NCBI GenBank assembly: GCA_020249045.1
Contig: JADCGK010000196.1
Coordinates: 1-49,772 of the forward strand
Source: Azospirillum sp.
Lineage (GTDB): Bacteria; Pseudomonadota; Alphaproteobacteria; CACIAM-22H2
Direction: 5' to 3'
Length of the DNA: 49,772 nt
Shown here: positions 11,722-49,772 of the stretch, in pieces
How the letters are laid out: each line of letters begins with the position of its first letter
Numbering within the stretch: position 1 is the first letter of the stretch
Made by a program: the position numbers and the translations under genes
Notes under the pieces: model-generated
What the model saw: only the letters and a program-made list of their open reading frames with translations
Database searches by the model: none
What the model was told of the DNA's origin: nothing

Positions 11722-11750
11722 TTGCGCGCGCGCGACGACCCTGCTAGCGT
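11722..11750 (+). promoter_or_regulatory. possible trp promoter
   Basis: TTGCGC and TAGCGT separated by 17 bases, ending about 28 bases before the leader-peptide start. The match to the sigma-70 consensus is weak, but position and spacing fit. Confidence 0.35.
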
Positions 11751-11778
11751 CGGTCGCATAGGGGAGTTTTTCGTTCGC

Positions 11779-11829
11779 ATGAGCCCGACCGCGCGCCGTA
11801 TCGTCCGCTGGTCCCGTTGGTGGCGCTGA
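11779..11829 (+). CDS. trpL: trp operon leader peptide
   Basis: A 16-codon frame reading MSPTARRIVRWSRWWR, with three Trp codons in the last six positions. It lies 100 bases before trpE(G), exactly as expected of a transcription-attenuation leader. Ribosome stalling at the Trp codons when charged tRNA-Trp is scarce would change folding of the downstream leader RNA. GGGGAG at 11761-11766 is the likely ribosome site. Alphaproteobacterial trpE(G) genes are known to have such leaders. Confidence 0.85.
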   Translation: MSPTARRIVRWSRWWR

Positions 11830-11867
11830 GCGCCAGCCAACCTTTTCCCCTTTTTCCGCCCGTATTC

Positions 11868-11914
11868 GGCCGTCGTCCCGCTCCCTTCCGGAGTCCGACA
11901 GGCCATCCCGTTTT
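11868..11914 (+). promoter_or_regulatory. candidate trp attenuator hairpin
   Basis: GGCCGTCG (11868-11875) can pair with CGAC-A-GGCC (11896-11904), with one bulged A, and the stem is followed by CCGTTTT. A second small hairpin, GGCGC-TGA-GCGCC, covers the stop codon of the leader peptide (11822-11834). The arrangement fits attenuation, but the U-run is short and the alternative antiterminator is not clear by eye. Confidence 0.4.
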
Positions 11915-11929
11915 CCAGGATCCGTCCCG

Positions 11930-14125
11930 ATGCGCACCGAATTCGTCACCAAAACCGGGCTCACGCTCGGCCGAACCCAGCGCCCGCTGCCCTACGCGAC
12001 CGCCCTCGACGGCTTCGCCGAGAAACTCGACCGCACGCGCGGCGGATTGTTCTCGTCGGGCGTCGATTATCCGGGCCGCTATTCGCGCTGGGAGTTCGGC
12101 TTCGCCGATCCGCCGGTCGAACTGATCGGCGGCGGGGACTGGCTGACCTTGCGGGCGCTCAACGCGCGCGGGGCGACGATCCTGGACCTGCTCGATCCGA
12201 TCCTGGCCGATGTCGAAGGGGCCGCGCTCGAGGCGCGCACCGAGACGACGCGCACGCTGAAAATCGCGCGCGTCGCCGGCCCCTTCCCCGAGGAAAAGCG
12301 CAGCCAACTCCCCTCGCTGTTTTCGCCGTTGCGCCGCATCGTGGCCGAATTCGCGGGGCTGCCCGACGGCTTCCTGGGGCTTTACGGCGCGTTCGGCTAC
12401 GACCTGTTGTTCCAGTTCGAGCCGATCGCGCTGACCCAGCCGCGCGACGCGGCCCCGCGCGATCTGCATCTTTTCCTGCCCGACCGGATGCTGATCGTCG
12501 ACCGGCGCAAGGAAACCGCGTTCCGCTACGACTACGAATTCGCGCGCGGACCCGTCACGACAGAAGGCAAGTCGCGCGCGTGCCTCGCGCCGTTGCCCAA
12601 GCGCCGCTACGTCGAGCCCGCGACCAAGCCCGAGATCACGTCCGACCTGACCGCCGAACAGTACGGCGCGATGGTCGACAAGGCGCGCGAGCGCATGCGC
12701 GTGGGCGACATTTTCGAGGTCGTGCTGTCGCGGCGGTTCGAAGCCGCCCATCAGGGCGCGCCGTCGGCTTTGTTCGCCAAGCTCAAGAAGGTGAACCCCA
12801 GCCCGTTCGAATTCTACCTTCAGCTGGGTCCCGACCGGCTGGTCGGAACATCGCCGGAAATGTACGTGCGCGTCGAAGGCACGCGCGTGGAAAGCTGCCC
12901 GATCTCGGGCACGGCGCGGCGCGGGCGCAACGCGATGGAGGACGCCGAACGGCTCAAGGGCCTCATCAACTCCGAAAAGGACGAGGTGGAGCTGACGATG
13001 TGCACCGACGTGGACCGCAACGACAAATCGCGCATTTGCGAGCCCGGAACGGTGAAACTGCTGGGCCGGCGCCAGATCGAGGCCTATGCCGGGCTGTTCC
13101 ATACGGTCGATCACGTCGAAGGCCGGCTGCGCGCCGACGTCACGGGCCTGGATGCGTTCATCAGCCACATGTGGGCGGTCACGCTGACCGGCGCGCCGAA
13201 GAAATGGGCCGCCGAGATCGTCGAGGCGATGGAGACCGCGCCGCGCGGCTGGTACGGCGGCGCGGTCGGCGCCCTGCAGTTCAACGGCGACGTCAACACC
13301 GGCATCACGATCCGCACCGTGCATCTGACCGAGGATTCCAAGAAGCGCCAGATCGCGGGCTATCGCGTGGGCGCGACGCTCGTATGGGATTCGACGGGGC
13401 CGGAGGAGGACGAGGAGACGCGCCTCAAAGCCAACGCGCTGTTCCGCGTGCTGGCCCCGCCGCAGGACGCCGCGGCCGGCGAAACCCGCGCGCGGATCGG
13501 CGCGGGCGCCCGGATCGTTCTGATCGACAACGAGGACAGCTTCGTTCACACGCTCGCGGATTACTTCCGCCAGACCGGGGCGACGGTCTCGACCTATCGC
13601 CACGGCCTGAGCCCGGATGCGATCGCCGCGCTGGAGCCCGATTTGGTCGTGCATTCGCCCGGTCCGGGAACGCCGGCACAGTTCGGCGTGCCCGCGTTGG
13701 TGCGCGCGCTGGCCGATCGGGGCCTCGCGCAGTTCGGCGTCTGCCTGGGGCTGCAAGGAACGGTCGAGGCGTTCGGCGGCGCGCTCGACGTGTTGCCCGA
13801 ACCGCGCCACGGCAAACGCTGGGACGTCGTGCATGACGGCACCGGTCTGTTCGCCGATCTGCCCAGCCCGTGCGCGGTCGGCGCCTATCATTCGCTGCAC
13901 GCGCGCCCGTCCGCGTTCCCCCACGACGCGCTGGAGATCGTGGCGAAAACCCCGGCGGGGCTGGTGATGGCCGTGCGCCACCGCCGCCTGCCGATCGCCG
14001 CCGTGCAGTTCCATCCGGAATCGGTGCTGTCGATGGGCCGCACCGAGAAGGGCGAGATCGGCCATCTGCTGATCGACAACGTGCTGCGGGAGCTGTTGCC
14101 CGGCCGGAGCGCGCGCGCCGCGTAA
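11930..14125 (+). CDS. trpE(G): anthranilate synthase, fused components I and II
   Basis: A 731-aa fusion converting chorismate and glutamine to anthranilate, the first step of tryptophan synthesis. The N-terminal part contains the Trp-feedback region (SSGVDYPGRYSRWEF). The chorismate-binding domain spans about residues 240-500 (EVVLSRRFE, PSPFEFYLQLG, VGTSPEMYVRV, CPISGTARRG, EKDEVELTMCTDVDRNDKSR). The glutamine amidotransferase domain begins near 528 (VLIDNEDSFVHTLADYF) with catalytic C605 in FGVCLGLQG and H695/E697 in QFHPES. The fusion form is typical of Rhizobiales and Azospirillum-like bacteria. Expression is probably controlled by the leader peptide just upstream. Confidence 0.97.
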   Translation: MRTEFVTKTGLTLGRTQRPLPYATALDGFAEKLDRTRGGLFSSGVDYPGRYSRWEFGFADPPVELIGGGDWLTLRALNARGATILDLLDPILADVEGAALEARTETTRTLKIARVAGPFPEEKRSQLPSLFSPLRRIVAEFAGLPDGFLGLYGAFGYDLLFQFEPIALTQPRDAAPRDLHLFLPDRMLIVDRRKETAFRYDYEFARGPVTTEGKSRACLAPLPKRRYVEPATKPEITSDLTAEQYGAMVDKARERMRVGDIFEVVLSRRFEAAHQGAPSALFAKLKKVNPSPFEFYLQLGPDRLVGTSPEMYVRVEGTRVESCPISGTARRGRNAMEDAERLKGLINSEKDEVELTMCTDVDRNDKSRICEPGTVKLLGRRQIEAYAGLFHTVDHVEGRLRADVTGLDAFISHMWAVTLTGAPKKWAAEIVEAMETAPRGWYGGAVGALQFNGDVNTGITIRTVHLTEDSKKRQIAGYRVGATLVWDSTGPEEDEETRLKANALFRVLAPPQDAAAGETRARIGAGARIVLIDNEDSFVHTLADYFRQTGATVSTYRHGLSPDAIAALEPDLVVHSPGPGTPAQFGVPALVRALADRGLAQFGVCLGLQGTVEAFGGALDVLPEPRHGKRWDVVHDGTGLFADLPSPCAVGAYHSLHARPSAFPHDALEIVAKTPAGLVMAVRHRRLPIAAVQFHPESVLSMGRTEKGEIGHLLIDNVLRELLPGRSARAA

Positions 14126-14169
14126 GAAATTTGCGCGCGGACGCGGCGCGACGGCAACAACGCGACCGC

Positions 14170-14216
14170 CGGGCGGACGCAAACGGGAAGCTTGTTGCTT
14201 TTCGTTTGGCCGCCCG
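14170..14216 (+). other. extended hairpin between trpE(G) and the IOR gene
   Basis: CGGGCGG (14170-14176) pairs with CCGCCCG (14210-14216). Inside it, AAACGGGAAGC (14181-14191) pairs with GCTTTTCGTTT (14197-14207) through 11 positions including two G-T pairs, with a TTGTT loop. No U-run follows, so it is not a standard intrinsic terminator. It may be an RNA-stability element or a processing site. Confidence 0.45.
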
Positions 14217-14308
14217 CCCGCGGCGTTGTGACGCGCACGCCGACCCGCTACGCTTCGCGCCAACAAGGACGCATTCCGGCGTCCGCCCCCGAGGGATGGA
14301 AAATCGCG

Positions 14309-17300
14309 ATGGCTGTTCCCGCGCGCGCGCTGCTCGACGTCTCGCTCGACGACAAATACGCGGCCGAAACGGGCCGCGTCTATCTGACCGGCATGCAAGC
14401 GCTCGTCCGATTGGCCTTCATGCAGCGCCGGCGCGATCTGGCCGCCGGGCTCAACACCGCGGGCTTCATTTCGGGCTATCGCGGCTCGCCCTTGGCCGGG
14501 CTCGACATGGCGCTGTGGCGCGCGCGCCGGCACATGAAGGACCACCACATCCACTTCACGCCCGGCGTGAACGAGGATCTGGCCGCCGCCGCCGTGTGGG
14601 GCACGCAGCAGGTCAACATGTACGAAGGCGCCAACTACGACGGCGTCTTTTCGATGTGGTACGGCAAGGGGCCCGGCGTCGACCGCTGCGGGGACGTCTT
14701 CAAGCACGCCAACGCCGCGGGCACCTCCCCGCATGGCGGCGTGCTGGCGCTGGCCGGGGACGATCACGCGGCCGTTTCCTCGACGCTGCCCCATCAATCC
14801 GAACACGAGTTCGTGTCGGCGATGATGCCGGTGCTGAACCCCTCGGGCGTGCAGGAATTCCTGGATTTGGGCCTCTACGGCTGGGCGATGAGCCGCTATT
14901 CGGGCTGCTGGGTCGCCTTCAAATGCACGGGCGAAACCGCCGATTCCTCGGCGTCGGTCTCGGTCGATCCGCACCGGGTGAAGATCGTCCTGCCGACGGA
15001 TTTCGAGATGCCGCCGGGCGGTCTGCACATCCGCTGGCCCGACCCGTGGCTCGACCAGGAATACCGCTTGCAGCGTTACAAGGTCTACGCGGCCTTGGCC
15101 TTCGCGCGCGCCAACAAGATCGACAAGATCGTCGTCGACAGCCCCGCGCCGCGCTTCGGCATCGTGACGACGGGCAAATCCTATCTCGACGTGCGCCAAG
15201 CGCTCGACGATCTGGGCATCGACGACGCCCTCGCGGCCAGGATCGGCTTGCGGGTCTACAAGGTCGCCATGCCCTGGCCGCTGGAACGCGAGGGCGCGCG
15301 GGCCTTCGCCGAGGGGCTGGAGGAGGTGCTCGTCGTCGAGGAGAAGCGCGCGCTGATCGAAAACCAGCTCAAGGAGCAGCTCTACAACTGGCGCGCCGAC
15401 GTGCGCCCGCGCGTGATCGGCAAGTTCGACGAAGCGGGCAAATGGATCCTGCCCTCGGCCGGCGAATTGACGCCCGCGATGATCGCCAAGGTGATCGCCG
15501 AACGCCTGGCCCCCTTCTACACGTCCGATCGCATCAAGGAACGCGTCGCGTTCCTCGACGCCAAAGCCAAGGCGCCCGAAGGGCACGCGTTCAAGCGCAC
15601 GCCCTATTTCTGCTCCGGCTGTCCGCACAACACGTCGACCAAAGTGCCCGAAGGCAGCCGCGCGATGGCCGGCATCGGCTGCCATTTCATGTCGATCTGG
15701 ATGGATCGTTCGACCTCCACCTTCACGCATATGGGGGCCGAGGGCGCGCCGTGGATCGGCCAAGCGCCGTTCACCCAGACCAAGCACGTGTTCCAGAATC
15801 TCGGCGACGGCACGTTCTTCCACTCGGGCTCGCTCGCCATCCGCGCGGCGATCGCGGGCAAGGTCAACATGACCTACAAGCTGCTTTACAACGACGCGGT
15901 CGCGATGACCGGCGGCCAGCCGCACGACGGGCAATTGACGGTGCCGCAGATCACGCGCATGGCCCATGCCGAGGGCGTGTCGCGCATCGTCGTCACCACC
16001 GACGAGCCCGAGAAGTACGTCGCGGCCGATTTCGCGCCGGGCACCGCCGTGCGCCACCGCGACGAACTCGACGCCGTCCAGAAGGAATTGCGCGAAACGC
16101 CCGGCGTTTCCCTGCTGATCCACGACCAGACCTGCGCCGCGGAGAAGCGCCGCCGGCGCAAGCGCGGCACCTTCCCCGACCCGAACAAGCGCGTCTTCGT
16201 CAACGAGGCGGTTTGCGAAGGCTGCGGGGATTGCTCGACCCAATCCAACTGCCTGTCGGTCGTGCCGGTCGAAACCGAGTTCGGGCGCAAGCGCGCGATC
16301 GACCAATCCAGCTGCAACAAGGATTACTCCTGCGTCAAAGGCTTCTGCCCGTCCTTCGTCAACGTGATCGGCGGCAAGGTCCGCAAGCCGCGCAGCAAGG
16401 CGCTGGAAGGCGGCGCCGATCCCTTCGCCGTGCTGCCGGCACCCGCACTTCCCGCCTGCGCGGAGCCCTACGGCATCCTCATCACCGGGGTGGGCGGCAC
16501 GGGCGTGGTCACCATCGGCGCGTTGATCGGCATGGCCGCCCATCTGGAAGGCAAGGGCGTGTCGGTGCTCGACATGGCCGGCCTCGCGCAGAAGGGCGGC
16601 GCCGTCGTCTCGCATGTCCGCATTTCGGACGACCCCGAGGCGATCCACGCGGTCCGCATCGCGGCGGGCGAAGCCAAGCTGCTGCTCGGTTGCGATCTGG
16701 TCGTGGCGGCGGGCGCCGAAGCGTTGGACCGCGTGCGCATCGGCACGACGCGCGCGGTCGTCAACGCGCACGAAAGCCCGACCGGCGAATTCACCCGCAA
16801 CCCCGACCTCCAATTCCCGGGCTCGGAGTTGCGCGCGACCGTGTCGCGCGCGCTGGGCCAGGGATCGGTCGATTTCGTCGCAGCGAGCGAACTCGCCACC
16901 GCGCTGATGGGCGATTCGATCGCCACCAACCCCTTCATGCTCGGCTACGCATGGCAGAAGGGTCTGATCCCGCTGGGCCTCGACTCGCTGATGCGCGCGA
17001 TCGAACTCAACGACGTCGCGATCGAATCCAACAAGCGGGCCTTCAACTGGGGCCGCCTTGCGGCGGTCGACGAAGGCAAGGTCAAGGACGCGGCCGCCCC
17101 CACGCTGCCGCCCGCGCGGCCGATCGCCCGCGATCTCGACGGCATCCTCGCCGCGCGCATCGCCCATCTGACCGGCTATCAGAACGAAGCGCTCGCCCGG
17201 CGCTACGAAGCGCTGGTCCGCAAGGTCGAAGCGGCCGAGAAAGCCAAAACGCCGGGGCTTTCCGGCCTCGCCGAGACGGTCGCGCGCTATTACGCCAAGC

Positions 17301-17791
17301 TGCTCGCCTACAAGGACGAGTACGAGGTGGCGCGGCTTTACGCCGATCCCAAATTCCGCGCCGCCCTCGCCCGGCAATTCGAAGGCGATTACAGGATCGA
17401 GTTCAATCTTGCCCCGCCGCTGTTGAGCGAGACCGACGCGAACACGGGCCGGCCGCGCAAGCGGGTGTTCGGGCCTTGGATGATGGGCGTCTTCGGCGTG
17501 CTGGCGAAGTTCAAGTTCCTGCGCGGCACGGCCTTCGATCCGTTCGGGCGCACGGCCGAACGGCGCATGGAGCGCCGTTTGATCGCCGAATACGAGGCCA
17601 CGATCGCCGAGATCCTCGAACGCCTGTCCCCGGCGACGCATGCGGCCGCCGTGGGCCTGGCCGCGATCCCCGAGGAGATCCGCGGGTTCGGGCCGGTGAA
17701 GGAAGCGCACCTGGCCAAAGCCAAGGCGCACGAAGCCGCGCTGCGCGCGCGGCTGCGCGGCGAGGCGCCCGAAGCCCAAGCGGCGGAGTAG
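14309..17791 (+). CDS. indolepyruvate ferredoxin oxidoreductase, single-chain (IorA-IorB fusion type)
   Basis: A 1160-aa thiamine-diphosphate, 4Fe-4S enzyme that oxidatively decarboxylates aryl-2-oxo acids such as indolepyruvate to acyl-CoA with ferredoxin. The N-terminal pyrimidine-binding region is GFISGYRGSPLAGLD. The TPP-binding half contains YFCSGCPHNTSTKVPEGSRA and GIGCHFMSIWMD. An iron-sulfur segment begins with C636-x2-C639-x2-C642-x5-C648 and continues SCNKDYSCVKGFCPS. The C-terminal gamma-type domain starts ILITGVGGTGVVTIGALIG. ATG at 14309 is chosen because the upstream extension to 14192 is not family-like. It lies downstream of trpE(G), separated by a hairpin, and GTG of the DUF429 gene follows the stop. 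Confidence 0.95.
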   Translation: MAVPARALLDVSLDDKYAAETGRVYLTGMQALVRLAFMQRRRDLAAGLNTAGFISGYRGSPLAGLDMALWRARRHMKDHHIHFTPGVNEDLAAAAVWGTQQVNMYEGANYDGVFSMWYGKGPGVDRCGDVFKHANAAGTSPHGGVLALAGDDHAAVSSTLPHQSEHEFVSAMMPVLNPSGVQEFLDLGLYGWAMSRYSGCWVAFKCTGETADSSASVSVDPHRVKIVLPTDFEMPPGGLHIRWPDPWLDQEYRLQRYKVYAALAFARANKIDKIVVDSPAPRFGIVTTGKSYLDVRQALDDLGIDDALAARIGLRVYKVAMPWPLEREGARAFAEGLEEVLVVEEKRALIENQLKEQLYNWRADVRPRVIGKFDEAGKWILPSAGELTPAMIAKVIAERLAPFYTSDRIKERVAFLDAKAKAPEGHAFKRTPYFCSGCPHNTSTKVPEGSRAMAGIGCHFMSIWMDRSTSTFTHMGAEGAPWIGQAPFTQTKHVFQNLGDGTFFHSGSLAIRAAIAGKVNMTYKLLYNDAVAMTGGQPHDGQLTVPQITRMAHAEGVSRIVVTTDEPEKYVAADFAPGTAVRHRDELDAVQKELRETPGVSLLIHDQTCAAEKRRRRKRGTFPDPNKRVFVNEAVCEGCGDCSTQSNCLSVVPVETEFGRKRAIDQSSCNKDYSCVKGFCPSFVNVIGGKVRKPRSKALEGGADPFAVLPAPALPACAEPYGILITGVGGTGVVTIGALIGMAAHLEGKGVSVLDMAGLAQKGGAVVSHVRISDDPEAIHAVRIAAGEAKLLLGCDLVVAAGAEALDRVRIGTTRAVVNAHESPTGEFTRNPDLQFPGSELRATVSRALGQGSVDFVAASELATALMGDSIATNPFMLGYAWQKGLIPLGLDSLMRAIELNDVAIESNKRAFNWGRLAAVDEGKVKDAAAPTLPPARPIARDLDGILAARIAHLTGYQNEALARRYEALVRKVEAAEKAKTPGLSGLAETVARYYAKLLAYKDEYEVARLYADPKFRAALARQFEGDYRIEFNLAPPLLSETDANTGRPRKRVFGPWMMGVFGVLAKFKFLRGTAFDPFGRTAERRMERRLIAEYEATIAEILERLSPATHAAAVGLAAIPEEIRGFGPVKEAHLAKAKAHEAALRARLRGEAPEAQAAE

Positions 17792-17792
17792 C

Positions 17793-18497
17793 GTGTTCGT
17801 CGCCGGCGTGGACGGCTGCAAAGGCGGCTGGGTCGCCGTTTTCCGGCACGCGAAGACGCGCACCAGCTTCGTGCGTTTCGCCGAGACGCTGGCCGCGATC
17901 GTCGATGCACCCGAGCGCCCGCGCTGGATCGCGGTCGACATGCCGATGGGCTTCGCGGACATCGCCGAGCCCGGCGGCCGGGCCTGCGAACGTGCCGCAC
18001 GCCGGATCCTGGGCCCGGCGGGCCGCGCGTCGTGCGTGTTCTCGGCCCCGTCGCGTGGGGCGCTGGACGCGCAAGACTATCCCGGAGCGCTGGCGCGCAA
18101 CCGCGAAGGGCGAGGCGTCGGCCTGTCCAAGCAAGCCTTCAACCTGTTCCCGAAACTGCGCGAGGTGGACGCGCTGTTGCGCGCGCGGCCCGGGATCGGC
18201 GTTTTCGAATCGCATCCGGAAATCGTCTTCGCGCGGATGGCGGGGGCCCCGTTGCGGGCCGCGAAGAAAACGCCCGAGGGGCGCGCGGCGCGGCTGGCCT
18301 TGTTGGCGCAGGCCGGGTTCGACGATGCGGGCCACTGGTGCGGCCTGTTCGCGCGCAAAACGGTGGCGCCCGACGACGTGCTCGACGCGGCCGCGGTCTG
18401 CGCGACGGCCTTGCGCCGCGCGCGCGGGCTGGCCGAACCTTTGCCGGCCGCACCCCCGTGCGACCGTTACGGCATCGAAATGGCGATCTGGCGTTAG
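17793..18497 (+). CDS. DUF429 domain-containing protein
   Basis: A 234-aa protein with the DUF429 signature: VAGVDGCKGGWVAVF at the N-terminus (RNase H-like fold start), WIAVDMPMGFAD, SCVFSAPSRGAL, GVFESHPEIVFARMAG and DDVLDAAAVCATALR near the end. The conserved Asp/Glu residues suggest a nuclease-like active site, but no activity is established. It starts at GTG one base after the IOR stop codon, so it is probably co-transcribed, although no functional link is evident. It ends convergently with a 4-base overlap into gapR. Confidence 0.92.
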   Translation: MFVAGVDGCKGGWVAVFRHAKTRTSFVRFAETLAAIVDAPERPRWIAVDMPMGFADIAEPGGRACERAARRILGPAGRASCVFSAPSRGALDAQDYPGALARNREGRGVGLSKQAFNLFPKLREVDALLRARPGIGVFESHPEIVFARMAGAPLRAAKKTPEGRAARLALLAQAGFDDAGHWCGLFARKTVAPDDVLDAAAVCATALRRARGLAEPLPAAPPCDRYGIEMAIWR

Positions 18498-32060: not shown

Positions 32061-35000
32061 CTACTTCTTCCAGCCGACGATCGAGGCGAGCGTCATGTAC
32101 AGCTTGCCGACGTCCGACGACACGAAGGTCGAAACGAGGACGTTCTCCGGATCGGCCTCGCGCGCCTCGGCGATCAGCTTGTCGTACTGCGTCAGATACT
32201 CGGTGACGTAGCGGCGGAAATCCGGATCGTCGGCGTAGCTTTTCGCGACGACCTTGCCGGTGGCGCCCCAATCCAAGCGCAGCAGGCGGCGCACGAAGAC
32301 GCCCTTGTCCCCGCCCAGGAACTCCTTGAGCACGCGGTCGGTGACCGACGAATCGAGCGTCCGCGCGAGGTCGATCGACAGCGAATTGAGGCCTTCGATG
32401 ACCATACGCGAAGCGCGCAGGAAGCGGCCGCGCTTGGCCTCGTATTCGCTGGCGGTCAGACGGTTCTGCGCCTCCTCCGCGGCGGCGGAGGCGGCGGCGA
32501 GGTCTTCGGCCTGGCGGCGGAAAGCGTCGGTCGCCGCCGAAGCTTCGCCGGTCGCCTTTTCGGCGGCGGCGTCCAAGGCCTCGGTCTGGCGGGCGAGCAG
32601 CGTCTCGGCCTCGGCGATGCGCCGTTCGGCCGCATCCATCGCCGAGCCGAGTTCGCGCGACTGGCGCGCGAAGCTTTCGCCGACGGACGCGATGCGCGCG
32701 GCGGCCTGTCCGACGGCGGCCATGACCTCCTCCGCCCGGCGGCGGAAGCTGTCGGCCGTCGCTTCGAGCTTCGCCCCGCCTTCGCGCGCGGCACCTTGCA
32801 GTTCGTCCGCGCGGCGGCGCAGCGAATCCCCGGTCTGGCCGATGCGCTGGCTCGCCACGGTCGCGGCGTCCGCCGCTTCGCGCGCCTGACGGTCGAACTG
32901 CGCGCCCACCTCCGACAGCCGCTCGCCCGCCTCGGCGACGACGCCGTTGAGGTGATCGGCCTGTCCGCGCAGAACTTGGCCGAGTTCGCTCGCGCGGCGG
33001 CCCAGACTGTCGATCGTTTCCACCAGCGTCGCGCGCTGCTTGGCGAGTTCGGCGTCGACCGTGGACATGCGCGCGGCCGTGCCGTCGGACATCGCGGCCA
33101 GTTCGGCCGCGCGGCGCACCAGCGCCTCGCCCAGCGCATCGAGCTTGGTCGCCGAACGGTCGGCCGTGTCGGCGAGCGCGCCCGCGTTGCCGCGCAGCAC
33201 GTCCGCGACCATCGACAGCCGCGCCTCGGCGGCGTCGGCGGCACCGCCCAGATCCACGGTGCGCTCGCGCAACGCCTGCCCCACGCCCGCGATGCGCGCG
33301 TTGGCTTGGTCGACGGCGATCTGCAGATCGCCCGTGCGCCGGCGGAACGTCTCGCTCGCCTCGGCCATCAACGCGCCGACCGATCCGGCGGCGCGGTTCA
33401 TGTCGGCCAGACGCTGGCGGAAATTCTCCCCGCCCTCCTCCAGGCGGCCGACGGCTTCGACCGCTTGGGTGGCGAGCGCCTGCAGCCGGCGTTCGGCTTC
33501 GGCGCCGGCGTCGGCGACCTTGGCGGTCGAGGCTTCAGCCACGTCGCGGATCTCGAGCGCGCGGTCGCGGAACGCGTCGGCCGTCACGCGCAGTTTGGCG
33601 GCGGCGTCCTCGGCGGCGAGGCCGACGGTGGCGGTCTGGTGTTCGAGCTGGGCACCCAGTTCGCCCGCGCGGCCCGAGGCGGTCTCCATGGTCTTGAGCA
33701 GGGCGAGCGACTGGTCGCGCAAGCCCGCGTCGATGGTGCCCACGCGCAACGCCGCCCGGTCGGCGGCGGCGTCGAGTTCGCCCGCGCGCGCGCGCAAGGA
33801 ATCCGAATTCTCCTTGAGCCGCTGGGCGGCACTGGCCGCGATCGAGGCGAGCTCGCCCGACCGCTGTTCGAGCAGGGCGGCGATTTCGTCCACGCGCGCG
33901 CGCGCGGCCTGCGAGGCGGCGGACAGATCCTCGGTTTCCCGGCGCATGGCGTCGCCTGCCGTGCCGATCGCCTTGACCGCGGCGGCGGCGGTTTCGTCGA
34001 GATCGCCGCCGCGCCGGCGCAAGGCCGTCGCCGCCTCGTCGAGCCGGGCGAGCGTCCGGTCGGCGGCGGCGTTGGTTTCGGCCGCGCGCTGGGCGATGGC
34101 GGTTTCGAGCGACGCCGCCCGATCCAGGCCCTGATTGGCCGCGTGCACGAGCCCCAGCGTTTCGTGGCGGAAGGCTTCGCCCGCTTCGCGCGCGCGGTGG
34201 GCGGCCTGATCGGCGGCCAACGTCAAGGCGGCGTTTTCGCGCTTGGCGACGTCGGAGCCCGCGGCCATGCGCTCGGCCGCGCGATCGACGGCGGTGGCGA
34301 CCTCGTGGCTGTCGCGCGATAGGGATTCCGCGGCCGAATCGAGACGACGCACGACGGCTTGGATATCCGCATCCGCACCTTGGGCGGTGGCGCGCACGGT
34401 TTCGCCGGACGCGCGCACGCGCTCGTCCAGGCGGTGGGACAGGGTTTCGAGTTCTCGGGCGCGCGCGTCGACCTCTTGGGCGGCGGCCGTCAGGCGCGCT
34501 TGGGCGTCGGCGGCGGTCGTATCGAGGGCGGCGGTCTTGCGGCGCACGGTTTCGCCCGACGCGTCGAGCGTGCGCGCGGTTTCGGCGGCGGCGGCCGAAA
34601 GTTCGGCCGCGCGCGCGGCGAGGGTGACGCCGAGCCCCTCGAGCCGGTCGCCGGTGGATTTGTCGATGGCGGCGAGTTCCTCGGCGCGCTGGCGCAGCGC
34701 CTCGGCGTAGTCGTCGGCGCGTTCGATCCCGCGATCGGCCGCGCGGACCAGATCGAGCGTGCGGTCGCGGAACGCGTCGGCCGCCTGGCGGACGCGCCCG
34801 CCGGCCTGATCGGCGGCGAGGCCGGTCTGCTCGGCCTCGCGCCGCGCGACCTCGCCGGTCGCCTCCATGCGCGCGGCCGCGCGGTCGAGCGCCGAGGCGA
34901 CCTCGCGCGCGTCGGCATCGAGGGTGCGGGCTGTCGCATCGAACCGCTGGGTGGCGGCGTTGACGGCGGTCTCCGCCTCGTTCGCGCGCGCGCGCAACGC

Positions 35001-37400
35001 CTCGGCGGTCTCGCCGAGCTTGCCCTGGGCCAGCGTCGCCGTGACGTCGAGGTCCTTGGCTTTGCGCTCCATATCCGCGTTGGCGTCGCCCATCCGCGTC
35101 AGCGCGGAATCGACCGCGCGTTCGATGCCGTCGGCGCGCAGGCGGATCGCTTCGCCCGACACGCCGAGTTTGTGCGCGACATCCGATGCGGTATCGCCCA
35201 GCGCGGCGGCTCCCTCGCGCACATGGCTCGCCAACGTGTCCAAGCGCTGCGTGGCGCGTTCGGCGGCGCCGTCGATCTCCTGCGAGCGGCGCTTGAGCGT
35301 GTCGCCCAGCTCCTCGGCCCGTGCGAGCGACAATTCCGCGGAATGCGTCAGATCCTGCGTATGCACGCGGAAACCTTCGGCCGTCGCGCGTACGCGCTGG
35401 GCGGCCTGATCGGCGGCCACGACCAGTTCGTCGCCGCGCCGGCGCGCGACTTCGGCGCTGGCGTCGACGCGCGCGGCGACGCGGTCCAGCGCCTCCTGGC
35501 TTTTCTGCGCGACGGTTTCGAGCGCGGCGTGGGATTCGCCCACGCGGCGGTTGACGGCGTCGAGTTCCTCGGTGCGGACGCGCAAGGCCGCACCGGCGGC
35601 GTCGACCGTGGCGCGCGCGCGGGCGGCGGCATCGGCCAGAATTTCGCTCTCGGTCTGCAGGCGGGTTTCGGCCGCCTGGGCTTCGGCCGACAAGGCGCCC
35701 GCCGTGCGCAGCAGCGCTTCGACCTCGCGGCCCAAACGCTGGCCCGCGTCCGCGCCCACGCGGCCGGCGGTTTCGGCCGCTTCGACCAGGCCCGTCCCGT
35801 GCCGGCGCAGATCCTCGCCGAGCGCCGCGGCCTTGGCCTCCGCCGCTTCGCCCGCCAGCGCGAGGTCGCGCGCGGCTTCCGAAAATCCGGCGTTCGCCGC
35901 CCCCACGCGCGCCAGCGCCTGACCCGCGGCGTCGGCGAGTTCGCGCGACTGGGTCTGGAAGGTTTCGCCCGCCGCGCGCACGCGCGCGACCGAATGGTCG
36001 GCGGCGGCGGCCAGTTCGTGGCTTTGCCGGCGCACGGCTTCGGTCGACGCCTCGGTGCGCGCGGTCAGGCGCTCGAGCGCGCTTTGCATCGAACGCGTTT
36101 CGACGCCGAGCGTCGTGGCCACCTCCGCCATGCGGACGGAGGCTTGCGCGACGTCCTCGGTGCGCGAGCGGATCAGATCGCCTGCGACCACGATCTTGCC
36201 CTCGGCCTCGGTCGAGGCCTCGGCGAGCGCGTCGATCTGGGCGCGCAAGGTGCCTTGCGTCGCCTCGGATTGGCGCGCGAGGTCGCGCGCGGTTTCGAGC
36301 AGACGATCGGCCGTACCGGCGAGGGTCTCGCCCGCGGATTCGGCTTGGCGCTTGGCCGACCCCATCTCGACGGCGGCGGCGGACGCCCGGCCCTCGGCGA
36401 TTTCGGCGGCATCCACGAAGGATTCGGATTGGCGGCGCAGCAGGTCGCCCACTTCGCGCGCGCGGTCGAGCGCCTTTTCCGTCGCCTCGACAAGGGCGCC
36501 GGTCTGGTCGGCCAGGATCGCGCGGATTTCGGCGGCGCGGCTGCGCGCGCGCTCGGTCGTTTCGGCGAGGTCTTGGGACTGCTCGCGCAAGGCTTCGCGG
36601 ATGGCGCCGGCGTTGGCGGCGGTTTTCTCGTTCGTCGCGGCGAGGCGTTCGACCTGCTCGCGCAAAGTCGCGTTGATCTCGCGCGATTGGGACAGCGCGC
36701 GATCCGAGGCGCCGGCGAGGGCTTCGGCCTGCTCGCGCACCGCGACTTCCACGATCTGCACGCGGCTGGTCAGCAGACCCGTGACGCGTTCGAGGCCTTC
36801 GGCGTGGCGGCGCAAACCCGCCATCACCTGCATGGCGCGCGTGGCGGCTTGATCCGAAACCGTGGTCAGTTCGCCGGCTTGCGCGGCGAGGCCCTGGCGG
36901 GCCTCCATCAGGCGTTGGCTTGCGATGTCGGAAGCTTCGGTCAGGGCGCGGGCCTGCACATGCAAAGCTTCGGCGATGGTCTGCAGCTTGGCGTCGGCCC
37001 GATCGGCGGGAAACGCGAGTTCGGCGAGTCGCACTTCGAGCGCGCGCGCGTGGCGGGCGAGATCGCGCCCGCGCGCCCGGTATCCGAGCGCGAACCACAA
37101 GACGAGCAACGGCATCGTCGCGCCGGCGACGAAGGCGCCCAATTCGTGCGGCAGCATCGACAAGAAGGCGGCCCCGCCCAGATAGAGCGCCGCGTACCAG
37201 AAAACGGCCGCGAGCCACGCGAGGGACGCGGCGAGGGCGATGGCGGTCGTGCGTCCGCCCGCGGGCGGCAGCGGTTCGTAGATCGGGCCGGCCGGATCGT
37301 TCGCCGCGCGCGGCGCGCCGGGCTCCGCCGCTTTGCCGCCCGCCACGCGCAAGCGCTGCGAAGCCTGTCCGTTGCCGATGCCGTTGCCGTTCTCGCTCAT
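32061..37400 (-). CDS. giant membrane-anchored coiled-coil protein of 25-residue repeats, 1779 aa
   Basis: Residues 1-50 are polar and Gly/Pro-rich. Two membrane helices follow (about 52-76 and 87-107). Basic residues after the second (GYRARGRDLARHARALEVR) put both ends in the cytoplasm. From about 142 to 1647 the chain consists of some 60 consecutive 25-residue units with consensus hG-x-x-L-R-R-Q-x-x-E-L-x-x-A-A-D-x-A-x-x-R-h-x-E. The core spacing 4-3-4-4-3-4-3 equals two heptads plus one hendecad, with no proline. The last 132 residues are non-repetitive (EGLNSLSIDLARTLDSSVTD, then SSDVGKLYMTLASIVGWKK). The plan resembles polarity scaffolds of alphaproteobacteria, such as TipN and the Rhizobiales growth-pole-ring/RgsE proteins; homology is not proven. 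It starts 3 bases after the scpA stop on the same strand, so it is co-transcribed. It converges with the yqaA-like gene. Function is unknown. Confidence 0.9.
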   Translation of the reverse strand: MSENGNGIGNGQASQRLRVAGGKAAEPGAPRAANDPAGPIYEPLPPAGGRTTAIALAASLAWLAAVFWYAALYLGGAAFLSMLPHELGAFVAGATMPLLVLWFALGYRARGRDLARHARALEVRLAELAFPADRADAKLQTIAEALHVQARALTEASDIASQRLMEARQGLAAQAGELTTVSDQAATRAMQVMAGLRRHAEGLERVTGLLTSRVQIVEVAVREQAEALAGASDRALSQSREINATLREQVERLAATNEKTAANAGAIREALREQSQDLAETTERARSRAAEIRAILADQTGALVEATEKALDRAREVGDLLRRQSESFVDAAEIAEGRASAAAVEMGSAKRQAESAGETLAGTADRLLETARDLARQSEATQGTLRAQIDALAEASTEAEGKIVVAGDLIRSRTEDVAQASVRMAEVATTLGVETRSMQSALERLTARTEASTEAVRRQSHELAAAADHSVARVRAAGETFQTQSRELADAAGQALARVGAANAGFSEAARDLALAGEAAEAKAAALGEDLRRHGTGLVEAAETAGRVGADAGQRLGREVEALLRTAGALSAEAQAAETRLQTESEILADAAARARATVDAAGAALRVRTEELDAVNRRVGESHAALETVAQKSQEALDRVAARVDASAEVARRRGDELVVAADQAAQRVRATAEGFRVHTQDLTHSAELSLARAEELGDTLKRRSQEIDGAAERATQRLDTLASHVREGAAALGDTASDVAHKLGVSGEAIRLRADGIERAVDSALTRMGDANADMERKAKDLDVTATLAQGKLGETAEALRARANEAETAVNAATQRFDATARTLDADAREVASALDRAAARMEATGEVARREAEQTGLAADQAGGRVRQAADAFRDRTLDLVRAADRGIERADDYAEALRQRAEELAAIDKSTGDRLEGLGVTLAARAAELSAAAAETARTLDASGETVRRKTAALDTTAADAQARLTAAAQEVDARARELETLSHRLDERVRASGETVRATAQGADADIQAVVRRLDSAAESLSRDSHEVATAVDRAAERMAAGSDVAKRENAALTLAADQAAHRAREAGEAFRHETLGLVHAANQGLDRAASLETAIAQRAAETNAAADRTLARLDEAATALRRRGGDLDETAAAAVKAIGTAGDAMRRETEDLSAASQAARARVDEIAALLEQRSGELASIAASAAQRLKENSDSLRARAGELDAAADRAALRVGTIDAGLRDQSLALLKTMETASGRAGELGAQLEHQTATVGLAAEDAAAKLRVTADAFRDRALEIRDVAEASTAKVADAGAEAERRLQALATQAVEAVGRLEEGGENFRQRLADMNRAAGSVGALMAEASETFRRRTGDLQIAVDQANARIAGVGQALRERTVDLGGAADAAEARLSMVADVLRGNAGALADTADRSATKLDALGEALVRRAAELAAMSDGTAARMSTVDAELAKQRATLVETIDSLGRRASELGQVLRGQADHLNGVVAEAGERLSEVGAQFDRQAREAADAATVASQRIGQTGDSLRRRADELQGAAREGGAKLEATADSFRRRAEEVMAAVGQAAARIASVGESFARQSRELGSAMDAAERRIAEAETLLARQTEALDAAAEKATGEASAATDAFRRQAEDLAAASAAAEEAQNRLTASEYEAKRGRFLRASRMVIEGLNSLSIDLARTLDSSVTDRVLKEFLGGDKGVFVRRLLRLDWGATGKVVAKSYADDPDFRRYVTEYLTQYDKLIAEAREADPENVLVSTFVSSDVGKLYMTLASIVGWKK
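32460..36977 (-). repeat. about 60 diverged 75-bp coding repeats
   Basis: This segment encodes residues 142-1647 of the giant protein. The unit length is 25 codons, kept almost perfectly in register: for example, more than 20 consecutive units from the middle to the end carry no insertion. One 4-residue slip (one helical turn) is visible around AGAALRVRTEELDAVNRRVGE. Units differ at most variable positions, so the repeats are old and not an assembly artefact. Confidence 0.85.
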
Positions 37401-37403
37401 GGT

Positions 37404-39554
37404 CTATGCCGCCCGTTTGCGCCGCCGGATCAAGCCGAGCACTTCGGCCGCCGCGTGCGGAATGTTGGTGCCGGGGCCGTAGATCGCCGCCACACCGGCC
37501 CCCAGAAGCGCGTCGTAATCCTGCGGCGGGATGACGCCGCCGCAGACGACCAGAATGTCCTCGGCGTCGCGCGCCTTCAGCGCCGCGACGAGCGCGGGCA
37601 CGAGCGTCTTGTGCCCTGCCGCCTGCGAGGAAATCCCGATCACATGAACGTCGTTTTCGACCGCCTGCCGCGCGGCTTCGTCCGGCGTCTGGAACAGCGG
37701 GCCGACGTCCACGTCGAAGCCGATGTCGGCGAACGCCGTCGCGATGACTTTGGCGCCGCGGTCGTGGCCGTCCTGGCCGAGCTTGACCACCAGCATGCGC
37801 GGCCGGCGGCCTTCGGCCTTGGCGAAATCGGCGACCTCGGCCTTGATCTTGGCGAATCCCTGATCGCCCTCGTAGGCCGATCCGTAGATCCCGGTCACCG
37901 ACCGGATGGTCGCGCGATGGCGCGTGAAGACCTTTTCGAGCGCGTCGGAGACTTCGCCCACCGTCGCGCGCGCGCGCATCGCTTCGATCGAAAGATCGAG
38001 CAGATTGCCCCCGCCGCCGCCCGCGGCGCGCGTCAGCGCTTCGAGCGCCGTCCGGCACGCGGCCTCGTCGCGCTTGGCGCGGACCTCGGCCAGACGTTTG
38101 ACCTGGCTTTCGCGCACGGCGGTGTTGTCGATGTCGAGAATGTCGACTTTCTCCGGGCTCTCGGGGCGGTACTTGTTCACGCCGACGATGGTTTCCTCGC
38201 CGCGGTCCACGCGCGCCTGGCGCAGGGCCGCCGATTCCTCGATCTTGAGCTTGGGCATGCCGCTCTCCACGGCCTTGGTCATGCCGCCCAACGCCTCGAC
38301 CTCGCCGATCAGCCGGCGCGCGTGCGCGGCGATCGCCGCGGTCAGGCTCTCGACGTAGTAGGACCCCGCCAGCGGATCGATCACTTTGGCGATCCCCGTC
38401 TCCTCCTGCAGGATCAACTGCGTGTTGCGCGCGATGCGCGCGCTGAAGGGCGTGGGCAGCGCCAAGGCTTCGTCGAAGGAATTCGTATGCAGGCTTTGCG
38501 TGCCGCCCAACGCGGCCGCCATCGCCTCGATGGCCGTGCGCACGACGTTGTTGTAGGGGTCCTGCTCGGTCAGCGAAACGCCCGAGGTCTGGCAATGCGT
38601 GCGCAGCGCCAGGCTGTCGGCCTTCTTGGGGCCGAAGCCCCGCATCATCTCCGCCCACAACAGGCGCGCCGCGCGCAGCTTGGCGATCTCCATGAAGAAA
38701 TTCATGCCGATCGCGAAGAAGAACGACAGGCGCGGGGCGAACGCGTCGACGTCGAGCCCCTTGGACAGCGCCGCACGCACGTATTCGAGTCCGTCGGCGA
38801 GCGTGAAGGCGAGTTCCTGCACGCAGGTCGCGCCCGCCTCCTGCATGTGGTAGCCGCTGATCGAAATCGAGTTGAATTTCGGCATGCGCTGGGCCGTGTG
38901 TTCGATGATGTCGGCCACGATGCGCATGCTGGGGCCCGGCGGATAGATGTAGGTGTTCCGGACCATGAATTCCTTGAGGATGTCGTTCTGGATCGTGCCC
39001 GAAAGCTTGGCGCGATCCACGCCCTGCTCCTCGCCCGCCACGACGAACGCCGCGAGCACGGGCAGCACGGCGCCGTTCATCGTCATCGACACCGACATTT
39101 TGTCGAGCGGGATCCCGTCGAACAGGATCTTCATGTCCTCGACCGAATCGATCGCCACGCCCGCCTTGCCGACGTCACCGACGACGCGCGGATGGTCGCT
39201 GTCGTAGCCGCGATGGGTGGCGAGATCGAAGGCCACCGACAAGCCCGCCTGGCCGGCCGCGAGCGCCTTCCGATAGAACGCGTTGGATTCCTCGGCGGTC
39301 GAGAAGCCGGCGTATTGGCGGATCGTCCACGGCCGGTTCGCGTACATCGTCGCGCGCGGTCCGCGCACATAGGGCGCGAAGCCCGGCAAGCCGCCCAAAT
39401 GCTCGAGGCCGGCGAGATCCGCCTCGGTGTAGAGCGGCTTCACCGCGATGCCTTCGGGGGTCATCCAGGTCAGCGAGTCGGGTTTGGCGCCCTTCAATTC
39501 GGCGGACGCGAGTTTTTCCCACTGGGCGAGATCCGGACGCGCGAAATCGGCCAT
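37404..39554 (-). CDS. scpA: methylmalonyl-CoA mutase, single-chain
   Basis: A 716-aa adenosylcobalamin-dependent mutase interconverting methylmalonyl-CoA and succinyl-CoA (propionate metabolism, ethylmalonyl-CoA pathway). The substrate-binding TIM barrel occupies about 1-560 ([59 protein letters not shown]). The C-terminal B12-binding domain carries D595-x-H597-x2-G600 in [14 protein letters not shown]. The length is that of homodimeric mutases such as E. coli ScpA. It is followed after three bases by the giant repeat gene. The cofactor route is partly encoded in this window (cobS, cobT). Confidence 0.97.
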
Positions 39555-46695: not shown

Positions 46696-49002
46696 CTATC
46701 GGGCGTTGGCGGATTTGAACGGGGTTTCGGCGAAGGCGGCGAACACGTAGGTCTCGCCCGCGTTGTTGGCGCCGTAACCGGCTTCCTGGCGCAACTTGAA
46801 GCCGCCCGCGAGCAGATCGAAACCGCGGCCGGCGTTCGTTTCCTCGGCGTTGGCTCGGCTGGGATAGAGCGAGGACGCGGCCGCGTTGAAGGGCGCGCGC
46901 GCGGCATCGACGACGTACCAATCCGTCGCGATCGTGGCGCCTTTGACCATCAGCCAACGCGGGCGGAAGCCGCACCACACGAAGGGTCCGTCCGCCGATC
47001 CGTTGCCGACATAGCCGCCGAAAAGCGAGAACCCGGGGACCGAGGTCCAGAGATAGGTGACGTAGGTTTCGCCGGTCACGTTGTAGCCGACGCCGACGCG
47101 GAACGTCGCGGGACCGGGAAGCGTGTTGTTCCAATCCGTCGCGTCGGCCGCGAACGCCGCCACGCCGTCGAGGATCAGCGATCCGGTCGCGGGGTTGGCG
47201 TTTGCGTTCCGGTGATAGACGCGCCACGACCGCGCGACGTTGCGGCACTTCCGCAGCATGAAATGCGGCGTCGCGTTGAGCGCGTGCGCGATATCCTTGT
47301 TGGCCGACGTCCCGCCGTCGGTCGCGATGTCGAAGCCGTAGGCCGCACCCCGCCGGAAGGCCCAATCGACGTAGGCGTTGGCGCCGAGGTTGACGCCGCG
47401 CGCGCCCGTATCGGCGCCGAGCGAATAGCCGTTCGCGTTCAATGCACCCAAGGCGTTCGCATCCGCATACTCGGCGGCGGCACCGTTGGATATGAGGCCG
47501 TTCTGCGCGCCGCGCACCGCGTCGAACAAATTGTGGTTCGTGGCGTTCGACCGAGACTTGAGCCACAGCAGATCGGGCTGGAATCGCAACGACGCCACGC
47601 TCGCGGCCACGCCCGTCCCGGCGCGGAGCGCGGCGTGGAAAGCGTCGTCCCCGCGCCGGACCGTCGGCGCCGGAAGGTTCGCGGCGTTGAGCGCCACGAA
47701 GCCGGCCGGGGGCGTGTGGACGAACGCGCGTTGGCCGAAATTGACGCCGAACACCTGGCCGCCGGCGCCGGTCCCGTTGCCGAAGGTTGGCACGACAACG
47801 TCGGGAAGCGCCGAGAACATGACGCCTTGCGAGACGTTGTCGCGATAGCAAGTGACCGTCCTGGCGTCCATGTCGAGCGCGACGCCGATCACGTTGGCGG
47901 CGGTGTAGGGCGCGCCATAGGCCGCCGAAGCGTTGTTGGCGTACTTGGTGCCGTCCGAGACGTAGAAGAATCCGTTGGCCGTATTGCCCCCGCGCTGTGC
48001 GGCCGCGACGGCGGCGTTGGCGACGCCCACCAGCATCGCGTTCGACGCGATGGTTTCGGGATGGACTTCCCAGTACCACTTCCCGCTGGCGACCGGGATC
48101 GTCGCGGAATTGATCGCGGCACCGGCGGCCAGCGTCATGCGCAGATTGGCGTTCGACGGCGTGTTCGCACCGGCGTTGTCGACGCCGGACAGCACCGCGA
48201 AGTTGTTCGTCGGACTGTCGAGCATCTGGTCGAAGGCCAGGCCCGCCGCGACGCCGATGCCGCTGGCCGTCCAATGGTTCCCGTTGCCCGAACGATCGCG
48301 CGCGATCGTCGCGGTCGAGGCCGCATCGTCGAACGGCAGATGGAAGCCATTGGCGCCGTGGACGCCCGCATAGCGCAGCGGGATCCAGGCGTTCGTCGCG
48401 ACGTCCACGCGACCGAACGCGGCCGGCGCGAGCTGCTGGCCGTCGACCATGACGATTTCGCTGAGATAACCGTCGAGATACATGGAACCGGCGCCGACGA
48501 AGCGCTGCCCGATGCACCAGTTCCGCGACGCCGCGTTCCAATCGAACGCGTAGTTCGCCGCCGGATACGACGCGGACGCGAACGACGCGATTTCGACGCC
48601 GTTCCAGTAAAGACGGACGCGGTTCGCCGCGGTCGCTTGCGTCGTGTCCACGGCGACGAGCAGATGCCCGTGCGCCGAGCCGTCGCGGAACAGCGCGTTT
48701 GTCAGCAGGTTGTAGGCGCCGGTTCCGCTGTCCCGAACGAGAAGCTGATCGCCCGCGCCATTGGTTCCCGCGCCGAACCCGAGGGTGTCCTGCTGGGCCG
48801 CCGAGGAACTGCCGCCGAAGATCGTCTGGAACGCGCCGGTTGCGAGCGTACCGCGCTTGATCCAGGCCGACAGGGTGAAGATGCGGGCGTTGGTCGGCGC
48901 CGCGACGTTCGTGCGCGACAGCGACGCGCCGCCGGCCGCGCGAAAGCGCAGCGAATGGCGGATGCGATGGCGGGTGGGGCCGCCGCCCGGGGGGATCAGC
49001 AT
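46696..49002 (-). CDS. phage tail fibre / receptor-binding-like protein with LamG-like and SPRY domains
   Basis: A 768-aa protein. Residues about 25-170 form a concanavalin-like (LamG) sandwich (IFTLSAWIKRGTLATGAFQT, FVGAGSMYLDGYLSEIVMVD). About 300-430 form a SPRY/B30.2-like domain (SGKWYWEVHPETIASNAMLV, GVALDMDARTVTCYRDNVSQ). The rest holds two related segments seen in phage fibre proteins (PDLLWLKSRSNATNHNLFDA and PRWLMVKGATIATDWYVVDA). Such modules bind surface glycans. ATG at 49002 shares one base with the stop of the preceding fibre gene (TGATG). The host receptor is unknown. Confidence 0.85.
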   Translation of the reverse strand: MLIPPGGGPTRHRIRHSLRFRAAGGASLSRTNVAAPTNARIFTLSAWIKRGTLATGAFQTIFGGSSSAAQQDTLGFGAGTNGAGDQLLVRDSGTGAYNLLTNALFRDGSAHGHLLVAVDTTQATAANRVRLYWNGVEIASFASASYPAANYAFDWNAASRNWCIGQRFVGAGSMYLDGYLSEIVMVDGQQLAPAAFGRVDVATNAWIPLRYAGVHGANGFHLPFDDAASTATIARDRSGNGNHWTASGIGVAAGLAFDQMLDSPTNNFAVLSGVDNAGANTPSNANLRMTLAAGAAINSATIPVASGKWYWEVHPETIASNAMLVGVANAAVAAAQRGGNTANGFFYVSDGTKYANNASAAYGAPYTAANVIGVALDMDARTVTCYRDNVSQGVMFSALPDVVVPTFGNGTGAGGQVFGVNFGQRAFVHTPPAGFVALNAANLPAPTVRRGDDAFHAALRAGTGVAASVASLRFQPDLLWLKSRSNATNHNLFDAVRGAQNGLISNGAAAEYADANALGALNANGYSLGADTGARGVNLGANAYVDWAFRRGAAYGFDIATDGGTSANKDIAHALNATPHFMLRKCRNVARSWRVYHRNANANPATGSLILDGVAAFAADATDWNNTLPGPATFRVGVGYNVTGETYVTYLWTSVPGFSLFGGYVGNGSADGPFVWCGFRPRWLMVKGATIATDWYVVDAARAPFNAAASSLYPSRANAEETNAGRGFDLLAGGFKLRQEAGYGANNAGETYVFAAFAETPFKSANAR

Positions 49003-49772
49003 CAGTTGCTCCACCGCCCGATGCAGCGCATCGCGGCGCCGTCGGAAAGGAAGGTGAAGATCGCCGCCTTGCCCGGCGCCGCGGGCAACGCCGGCGTTCC
49101 GTCGACGCCGAAGTCGAACGTGGCGTGCCAAGCGAGCGCGCGCCCGCCGGCGGCGTCCTGCTGGACGATCAGCAGAAAGACGCCGCCGTCGCGCGGGTTG
49201 GCGGGCGCGCCCAGCGTGCGGTTGCCGCCCAGCGTCGCGCGCGCGACGGGTGCGAGGTCCAGATCCCACGCGATCACGGCTTGATCCGCGAGCGTTGCGG
49301 GCGCGTAACGCTGCGCGCGCGTGAAGGCTTGGACCGCATCGAGATAGGCGTAGGACGCGGACGCCGGCGCCGCTTCGAGCGCCGCACGCGCGGCCGCACC
49401 GGTCGCGGCGCCCGTCCCGCCTTGGGCGATGGGCAAAGGCAAGGCGAGCGAACCGCCGCCCGTCTCCGCACGCGCGACCGCTTGGCCGGCCGCATCGAAG
49501 CCAAGCAACTGGCCCGCCCGCGTGGCCGCCGGAGGCAACGGCGCCAACGCCGCGACGTCCTCGTCGGGCTGGCGCAAGGACCGCGCCACGCCGTGGGCGA
49601 CTTGCTGGATCGCCGCGGTTTGGAAGTCGAGTTCGTCGTTGAGGGTCTTGGCTCGCAATTCGCCGCCCTCCTGGAAGTCGGTCTGGCGCCGCACGGTCAA
49701 GCGGCGCAGTACGGCGATCGCGGTGCCGCCCGCGGGCGCGACGTCGAAGGTCACCGCACCGCGGCCGTTCGC
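49002..49772 (-). CDS. phage tail fibre protein, 5' end missing at window edge
   Basis: At least 256 residues are in the window, and the frame is open through base 49772. The N-terminal part resembles T7-type fibre/tailspike anchor domains (VTFDVAPAGGTAIAVLRRLT, RRQTDFQEGGELRAKTLNDE, LDFQTAAIQQVAH). A hallmark fibre repeat PLPIAQGGTGAATGAAARAA follows. The C-terminus is beta-rich (GKAAIFTFLSDGAAMRCIGR). It probably anchors the fibre to the tail, with the downstream LamG/SPRY protein as the distal part. Confidence 0.85.
   Translation of the reverse strand, partial: ANGRGAVTFDVAPAGGTAIAVLRRLTVRRQTDFQEGGELRAKTLNDELDFQTAAIQQVAHGVARSLRQPDEDVAALAPLPPAATRAGQLLGFDAAGQAVARAETGGGSLALPLPIAQGGTGAATGAAARAALEAAPASASYAYLDAVQAFTRAQRYAPATLADQAVIAWDLDLAPVARATLGGNRTLGAPANPRDGGVFLLIVQQDAAGGRALAWHATFDFGVDGTPALPAAPGKAAIFTFLSDGAAMRCIGRWSN

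Follow-up and report, generated by a model that had tools for sequence, protein, structure and literature searches.

TipN, the new-pole landmark of Caulobacter crescentus, has 882 residues (PMC13170164), with two N-terminal transmembrane (TM) helices and a coiled coil (PMC9178275). RgsE and GPR, of 2,089 and 2,115 aa, respectively, are membrane-anchored cytoplasmic proteins with two N-terminal TM helices and about 1,700 helical residues (PMC7327166, PMC8262873). The cytoplasmic location was measured for RgsE (PMC7327166), the C-terminal region of GPR is essential (PMC8262873), and the Brucella homolog of RgsE/GPR was located at the new pole (PMC9938171). One paper remarks briefly on a similarity between GPR and TipN (PMC8546619) and another terms them analogous (PMC13170164), so that the link itself had been made before. 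Their rods are described in this literature merely as apolipoprotein-like or coiled-coil. Neither a shared domain nor a 25-residue module is described in the GPR and TipN literature that we surveyed.

The rod gene and its surroundings

The window analyzed here, a stretch of 49,772 nucleotides from Azospirillum sp., encodes a rod protein with the following features (coordinates are those of the window, residues those of the protein).

32061 to 37400, minus strand: rod-protein gene, 1,779 aa; ATG at 37400, stop at 32061-32063
37257 to 37400, minus strand: N-terminal tail, residues 1-48; low complexity (sequence), predicted to be cytoplasmic
37179 to 37256, minus strand: TM helix 1 (TM1), residues 49-74 (hydropathy; AlphaFold helix)
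37017 to 37151, minus strand: TM helix 2 (TM2) continuing as an amphipathic helix, residues 84-128 (family alignment; AlphaFold)
32460 to 37007, minus strand: rod with a 25-residue period, residues 132-1647 (repeat model); first 200 residues modeled as one unbroken helix
36411 to 36935, minus strand: seven in-register units close to the membrane, residues 156-330 (repeat model); conservation in the genus 0.76-0.95
35493 to 36362, minus strand: rod section holding all seven register slips, residues 347-636 (repeat model)
32493 to 35492, minus strand: forty successive slip-free 25-residue units, residues 637-1636 (repeat model)
34361 to 34366, minus strand: approximate site, near residues 1012/1013, of the 200-residue (8-unit) insertion of longer genus-mates; placement depends on the aligner
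32064 to 32435, minus strand: C-terminal domain, residues 1656-1779 (124 residues), kept across Alphaproteobacteria; all-helical globular model
37404 to 39554, minus strand: scpA, methylmalonyl-CoA mutase, directly upstream; stop 3 nt before the rod ATG

The two N-terminal TM helices were seen both by hydropathy and in the AlphaFold model. The membrane hairpin can be aligned across the family, with W20 and P55 invariant, and the TM2 region carries a conserved W, a conserved P, and an LPHELGA motif. The TM2 region (residues 84-129, 37014-37151) also matches phrog_9267, a phage family of unknown function (E = 3e−6). Modeling of residues 43 to 332 gave TM1, a TM2 helix running to residue 128, a short break at a conserved proline, and an unbroken helix from 132 to 331. 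In this model the rod fragment had a pLDDT of mostly 80 to 90 and a pTM of 0.31, as expected for a lone rod. The C-terminal domain, present in a single copy in the source genome, was modeled as seven helices (pLDDT 92.4, pTM 0.86) and is unmatched by Pfam or NCBIfam. Its conserved motifs are G, FR, and S-D/E-x-G-K-x-Y. Sequence searches for its solved-structure relatives gave nothing better than an E value of 0.04, Foldseek gave no match at E ≤ 0.001 in the PDB or among viral models, and the best VIA-align Z score (6.9) lies within the common range for helical folds. A link to MamY, seen for one member of 41 at an E value of 0.004, was rejected as probably due to chance.

The scpA stop codon and the ATG of the rod gene are 3 nt apart (37398-37406). 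This pair was found in nearly all the relatives of the same family whose upstream region was examined, and the order recurs outside it, in two further families (families of G050, G059, and G186). The two genes probably form a co-transcribed operon. Elsewhere in the window, positions 46696-49269 encode a phage-like structural or tail-fiber protein (PHROG 19943, 487 bits) with SPRY, laminin-G, and DUF7483 domains, which suggests prophage genes near the right end. An open frame of 2,072 aa on the minus strand (11744-17962) has no Pfam or PHROG match and may be spurious, since it lies in GC-rich DNA with long overlapping frames on the other strand.

The 25-residue register of the rod

An earlier note on this DNA had divided residues 142 to 1647, behind two membrane helices, into about 60 consecutive units of 25 residues, and this was borne out by autocorrelation, periodogram, and repeat model. 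Over these residues, the hydropathy autocorrelation was 0.437, 0.455, 0.408, and 0.381 at lags of 25, 50, 75, and 100, respectively, while the maximum in 300 shuffled rods was 0.109. The periodogram was dominated by a peak at 7.005/25 (3.569 residues), and additional maxima fell on other multiples of 1/25. An unsupervised repeat model with 25 columns and free slips scored 853 for period 25, 354 for the runner-up (period 40), and 176 to 209 for shuffled rods; the repeat analysis, which the note had named as a way to refute its claim, found the period present. The shuffles rule out chance or compositional periodicity. Recent tandem duplication of DNA is also ruled out, as Tandem Repeats Finder returned no 75-bp array; since no 75-bp repeat survives, the register is old and has been maintained at the protein level.

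The core columns are spaced 3-4-3-4-4-3-4, i.e., a heptad, a hendecad, and a heptad, which is a rotation of the spacing claimed before (4-3-4-4-3-4-3, two heptads plus one hendecad). Three of these columns are mostly Leu, Val, Phe, Ile, or Met (0.74, 0.92, and 0.90) and the other four mostly small or mixed, with Arg/Lys and Asp/Glu filling the non-core faces of the rod. Pro, Cys, and Trp are entirely missing from the 1,511 rod residues (0 each). Register slips, which are jumps of 4, 7, 8, 18, or 21 positions, are rare, as had been stated, but they are not spread along the rod: after seven clean units (156-330), all seven of them cluster at residues 347 to 614, and 40 slip-free units follow (637-1636). 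With 0.15 nm for each residue, the full rod would come to about 227 nm, by arithmetic that assumes an unbroken helix. The length of about 220 nm proposed earlier presumes the same, and the AlphaFold model backs only 200 residues of it.

We compared eight full-length members from the genus, including the one in the window, by measuring the rod between fixed anchors. The rods have either 1,566 or 1,766 residues, a difference of exactly 8 × 25. Within each length class, the ungapped identity is 73 to 98% over the entire rod, and the short and long forms align with one 200-residue gap and no other indel. Such a clean change in length, without further indels, supports the selection on rod geometry that the note had proposed; the step itself may be a single event. 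Conservation in the genus is highest near the membrane (0.88 to 0.95 at residues 181-280) and in the last quarter of the rod. It drops to its minimum halfway along the rod (about 0.45 at residues 906-1005), yet the 25-residue period persists there. Quantization of rod length modulo 25 was not seen across the class, where lengths scatter between families, so that the 8 × 25 step is demonstrated inside the genus only.

Homologs across the Alphaproteobacteria

Homologs of the last 134 residues were found in 26 of the 41 close genomes. The C-terminal domain is present in 143 of the 385 genomes sampled over the Alphaproteobacteria, typically ending long open frames. We examined forty of these homologs at full length, and nearly all have one or two N-terminal hydrophobic helices, a helical rod, and the C-terminal domain. 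The favored rod period is 25 in most of the forty, 29 in some, and 11, 22, or 44 in several Hyphomicrobiales. The opinion that the strict 25-residue module could not be attached to a described family is thereby overturned: period 25 is frequent throughout the class and recurs in homologs from many families. Several Hyphomicrobiales (L087, L089, L223, and L171) have 22/44-residue modules, against 29 in others (L069, L078, L073, and L091). A second, diverged copy occurs in three genomes from the same family as the source genome (G012, G013, and G017; copies L248, L249, and L250), and the stretch surrounding these copies showed no scpA.

The note had suggested profile searches with the C-terminal and TM regions, and these revealed homology to RgsE/GPR-type and Caulobacter proteins. 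The C-terminal domain profile of the family in the window matched that of Hyphomicrobiales with a probability of 99.8% (E = 2.6e−29) and that of Caulobacteraceae with 97.0% (E = 1.2e−10), E values that hold for single comparisons. The profile of the N-terminal part matched at 97.9% and 92.6% for Hyphomicrobiales and Caulobacter, respectively. The resemblance to TipN and GPR/RgsE, previously noticed in plan, now holds by homology, as both the hairpin and the C-terminal domain align with RgsE-type and Caulobacter proteins. These matches, in which the Caulobacter protein stands for TipN and Hyphomicrobiales homologs stand for GPR, support the assignment of the rod protein to a TipN/GPR/RgsE family at the level of sequence.

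Named genomes with the C-terminal domain include Brucella, Mesorhizobium, Bosea, Microvirga, Rhodoplanes, Azorhizobium, and others. In eighteen proteins from named genomes, the domain ends a protein of about 1,480 to 2,330 aa with a membrane region, the exception being a 533-aa frame in Aurantimonas. The domain also occurs in 48 of 60 Caulobacteraceae, with a single copy in each genome. We picked a Caulobacter genome via its ChpT, which is 99% identical to a C. crescentus PDB chain. There, the domain profile matches one protein, of 900 codons and with 882 aa from an in-frame Met. This protein fits TipN, identified by genome, length, and architecture, not by accession.

Proposed role and comparison with TipN and GPR

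We think that the rod protein is probably a membrane-anchored cytoplasmic polarity scaffold, one of a pan-alphaproteobacterial family that counts TipN and GPR/RgsE among its members. Two observations count against this: neither TipN nor GPR has a rod of strict 25-mers, and the gene adjoins a metabolic one, scpA. The two-helix hairpin would hold the protein in the inner membrane and leave its two termini in the cytoplasm. Because the residues that follow TM2 are rich in Arg, the positive-inside rule predicts a cytoplasmic rod, as measured for RgsE (PMC7327166); the prediction for the N-terminal tail has the same basis. The rod is a predicted break-free helix, probably oligomerizing as a parallel coiled coil, and would carry at its far end the globular C-terminal domain, a putative docking or assembly domain. 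By analogy with TipN and GPR, the protein may gather at a pole, or at the site of division, where the new pole will form, and may recruit polarity, envelope, or segregation proteins.

Heptads (3.5) coil left-handed and hendecads (3.667) right-handed, and the natural α-helix has about 3.6 residues per turn. With its seven core positions spread over seven turns, the 25-residue module would give 25/7 = 3.571 residues per turn and a hydrophobic stripe that is almost straight. Since this is nearly the period of the α-helix itself, the coil should need little supercoiling. Such a low-twist rod could reach a great length, and whole modules could be gained or lost without losing the stripe. It is possible, if rather doubtful, that the family is a class-wide molecular ruler, with one module per lineage (25, 29, or 22/44) setting the supercoil pitch and with a length that evolves by whole modules. 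In that case, the distance from the anchor to the C-terminal domain would set the size of the polar zone or ring, and TipN and GPR would mark the opposite ends of a single series.

The helices could instead bind lipid in the manner of apolipoproteins, lying along the inner membrane and organizing it, with no upright rod. GPR relatives do match PF01442 and were named apolipoprotein-like (PMC8262873), and the rod in the window has a weak match to the same model, but at 12.7 bits against a gathering cutoff of 90. The strongest PF01442 matches in the class (G380 and G092) fall in ORFs of the TipN/GPR-type family, as reported for GPR (PMC8262873), which was counted for membership in it. The core of the rod in the window forms a narrow stripe like that of a coiled coil, with seven positions in every 25 residues, and the 22/44-residue apolipoprotein pattern is found in Hyphomicrobiales relatives, not in this rod. 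We consider a lipid-binding role unlikely.

The position of scpA, 3 nt upstream and in an order kept in its own and two further families, could point away from the pole, to a tether or scaffold for propionate/methylmalonyl-CoA metabolism with ScpA as its partner. This is very unlikely: in the stretches covered by the comparison, scpA is missing from the vicinity of most homologs, among them those of Hyphomicrobiales and that of Caulobacter (TipN), and the family of the protein is that of known polar scaffolds. An ordinary coiled coil of the SMC or chemoreceptor type, which the note had named as a refuting result, or of the tape-measure type is extremely improbable. Models of SMC, MCE, and phage tape-measure proteins gave weak matches, all far under the curated cutoffs (18.7 bits against 567.35 for SMC), Pfam showed no ATPase head and there is no receptor domain, and the N- and C-terminal homology is specifically to the TipN/GPR family.

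As a member of the polar-scaffold family, the rod protein would help to join two separately studied scaffolds into one comparable series, which the shared C-terminal domain and membrane hairpin extend over much of the Alphaproteobacteria, and it singles out a part of 124 residues as a candidate for docking tests. Its strict module illustrates how such rods may change length in whole units, and makes it a clean natural system for studying how register is kept in a very long coiled coil and whether length or pitch matters at the pole.

GPR (Agrobacterium Atu1348) and RgsE (Sinorhizobium SMc00190; Brucella) share with the rod protein two N-terminal TM helices and a rod of similar size, predicted to be cytoplasmic here as well, and the N-terminal part and C-terminal domain are homologous, as seen in named Hyphomicrobiales homologs. 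In contrast, the rods of Hyphomicrobiales mostly repeat with periods of 11/22/44 (hendecad type) or combine these with 29, and a Pro-rich linker precedes their C-terminal domain. GPR also organizes polar growth in cells without MreB, whereas the source genome encodes a full-length MreB (508.6 bits), together with PopZ and ChpT; its MreB sets it apart from the hosts of GPR/RgsE in the narrow sense, i.e., the polar-growth organizer of MreB-less Rhizobiales. TipN resembles the rod protein in its N-terminal membrane hairpin, helical region, homologous C-terminal domain, and one detected copy per genome. It differs in a long N-terminal tail, a Pro-rich linker, and a far shorter rod with only a weak 25/36 pattern. 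Since MreB, PopZ, and ChpT are retained, a role like that of TipN, as a polarity landmark, would fit better than polar growth like that organized by GPR.
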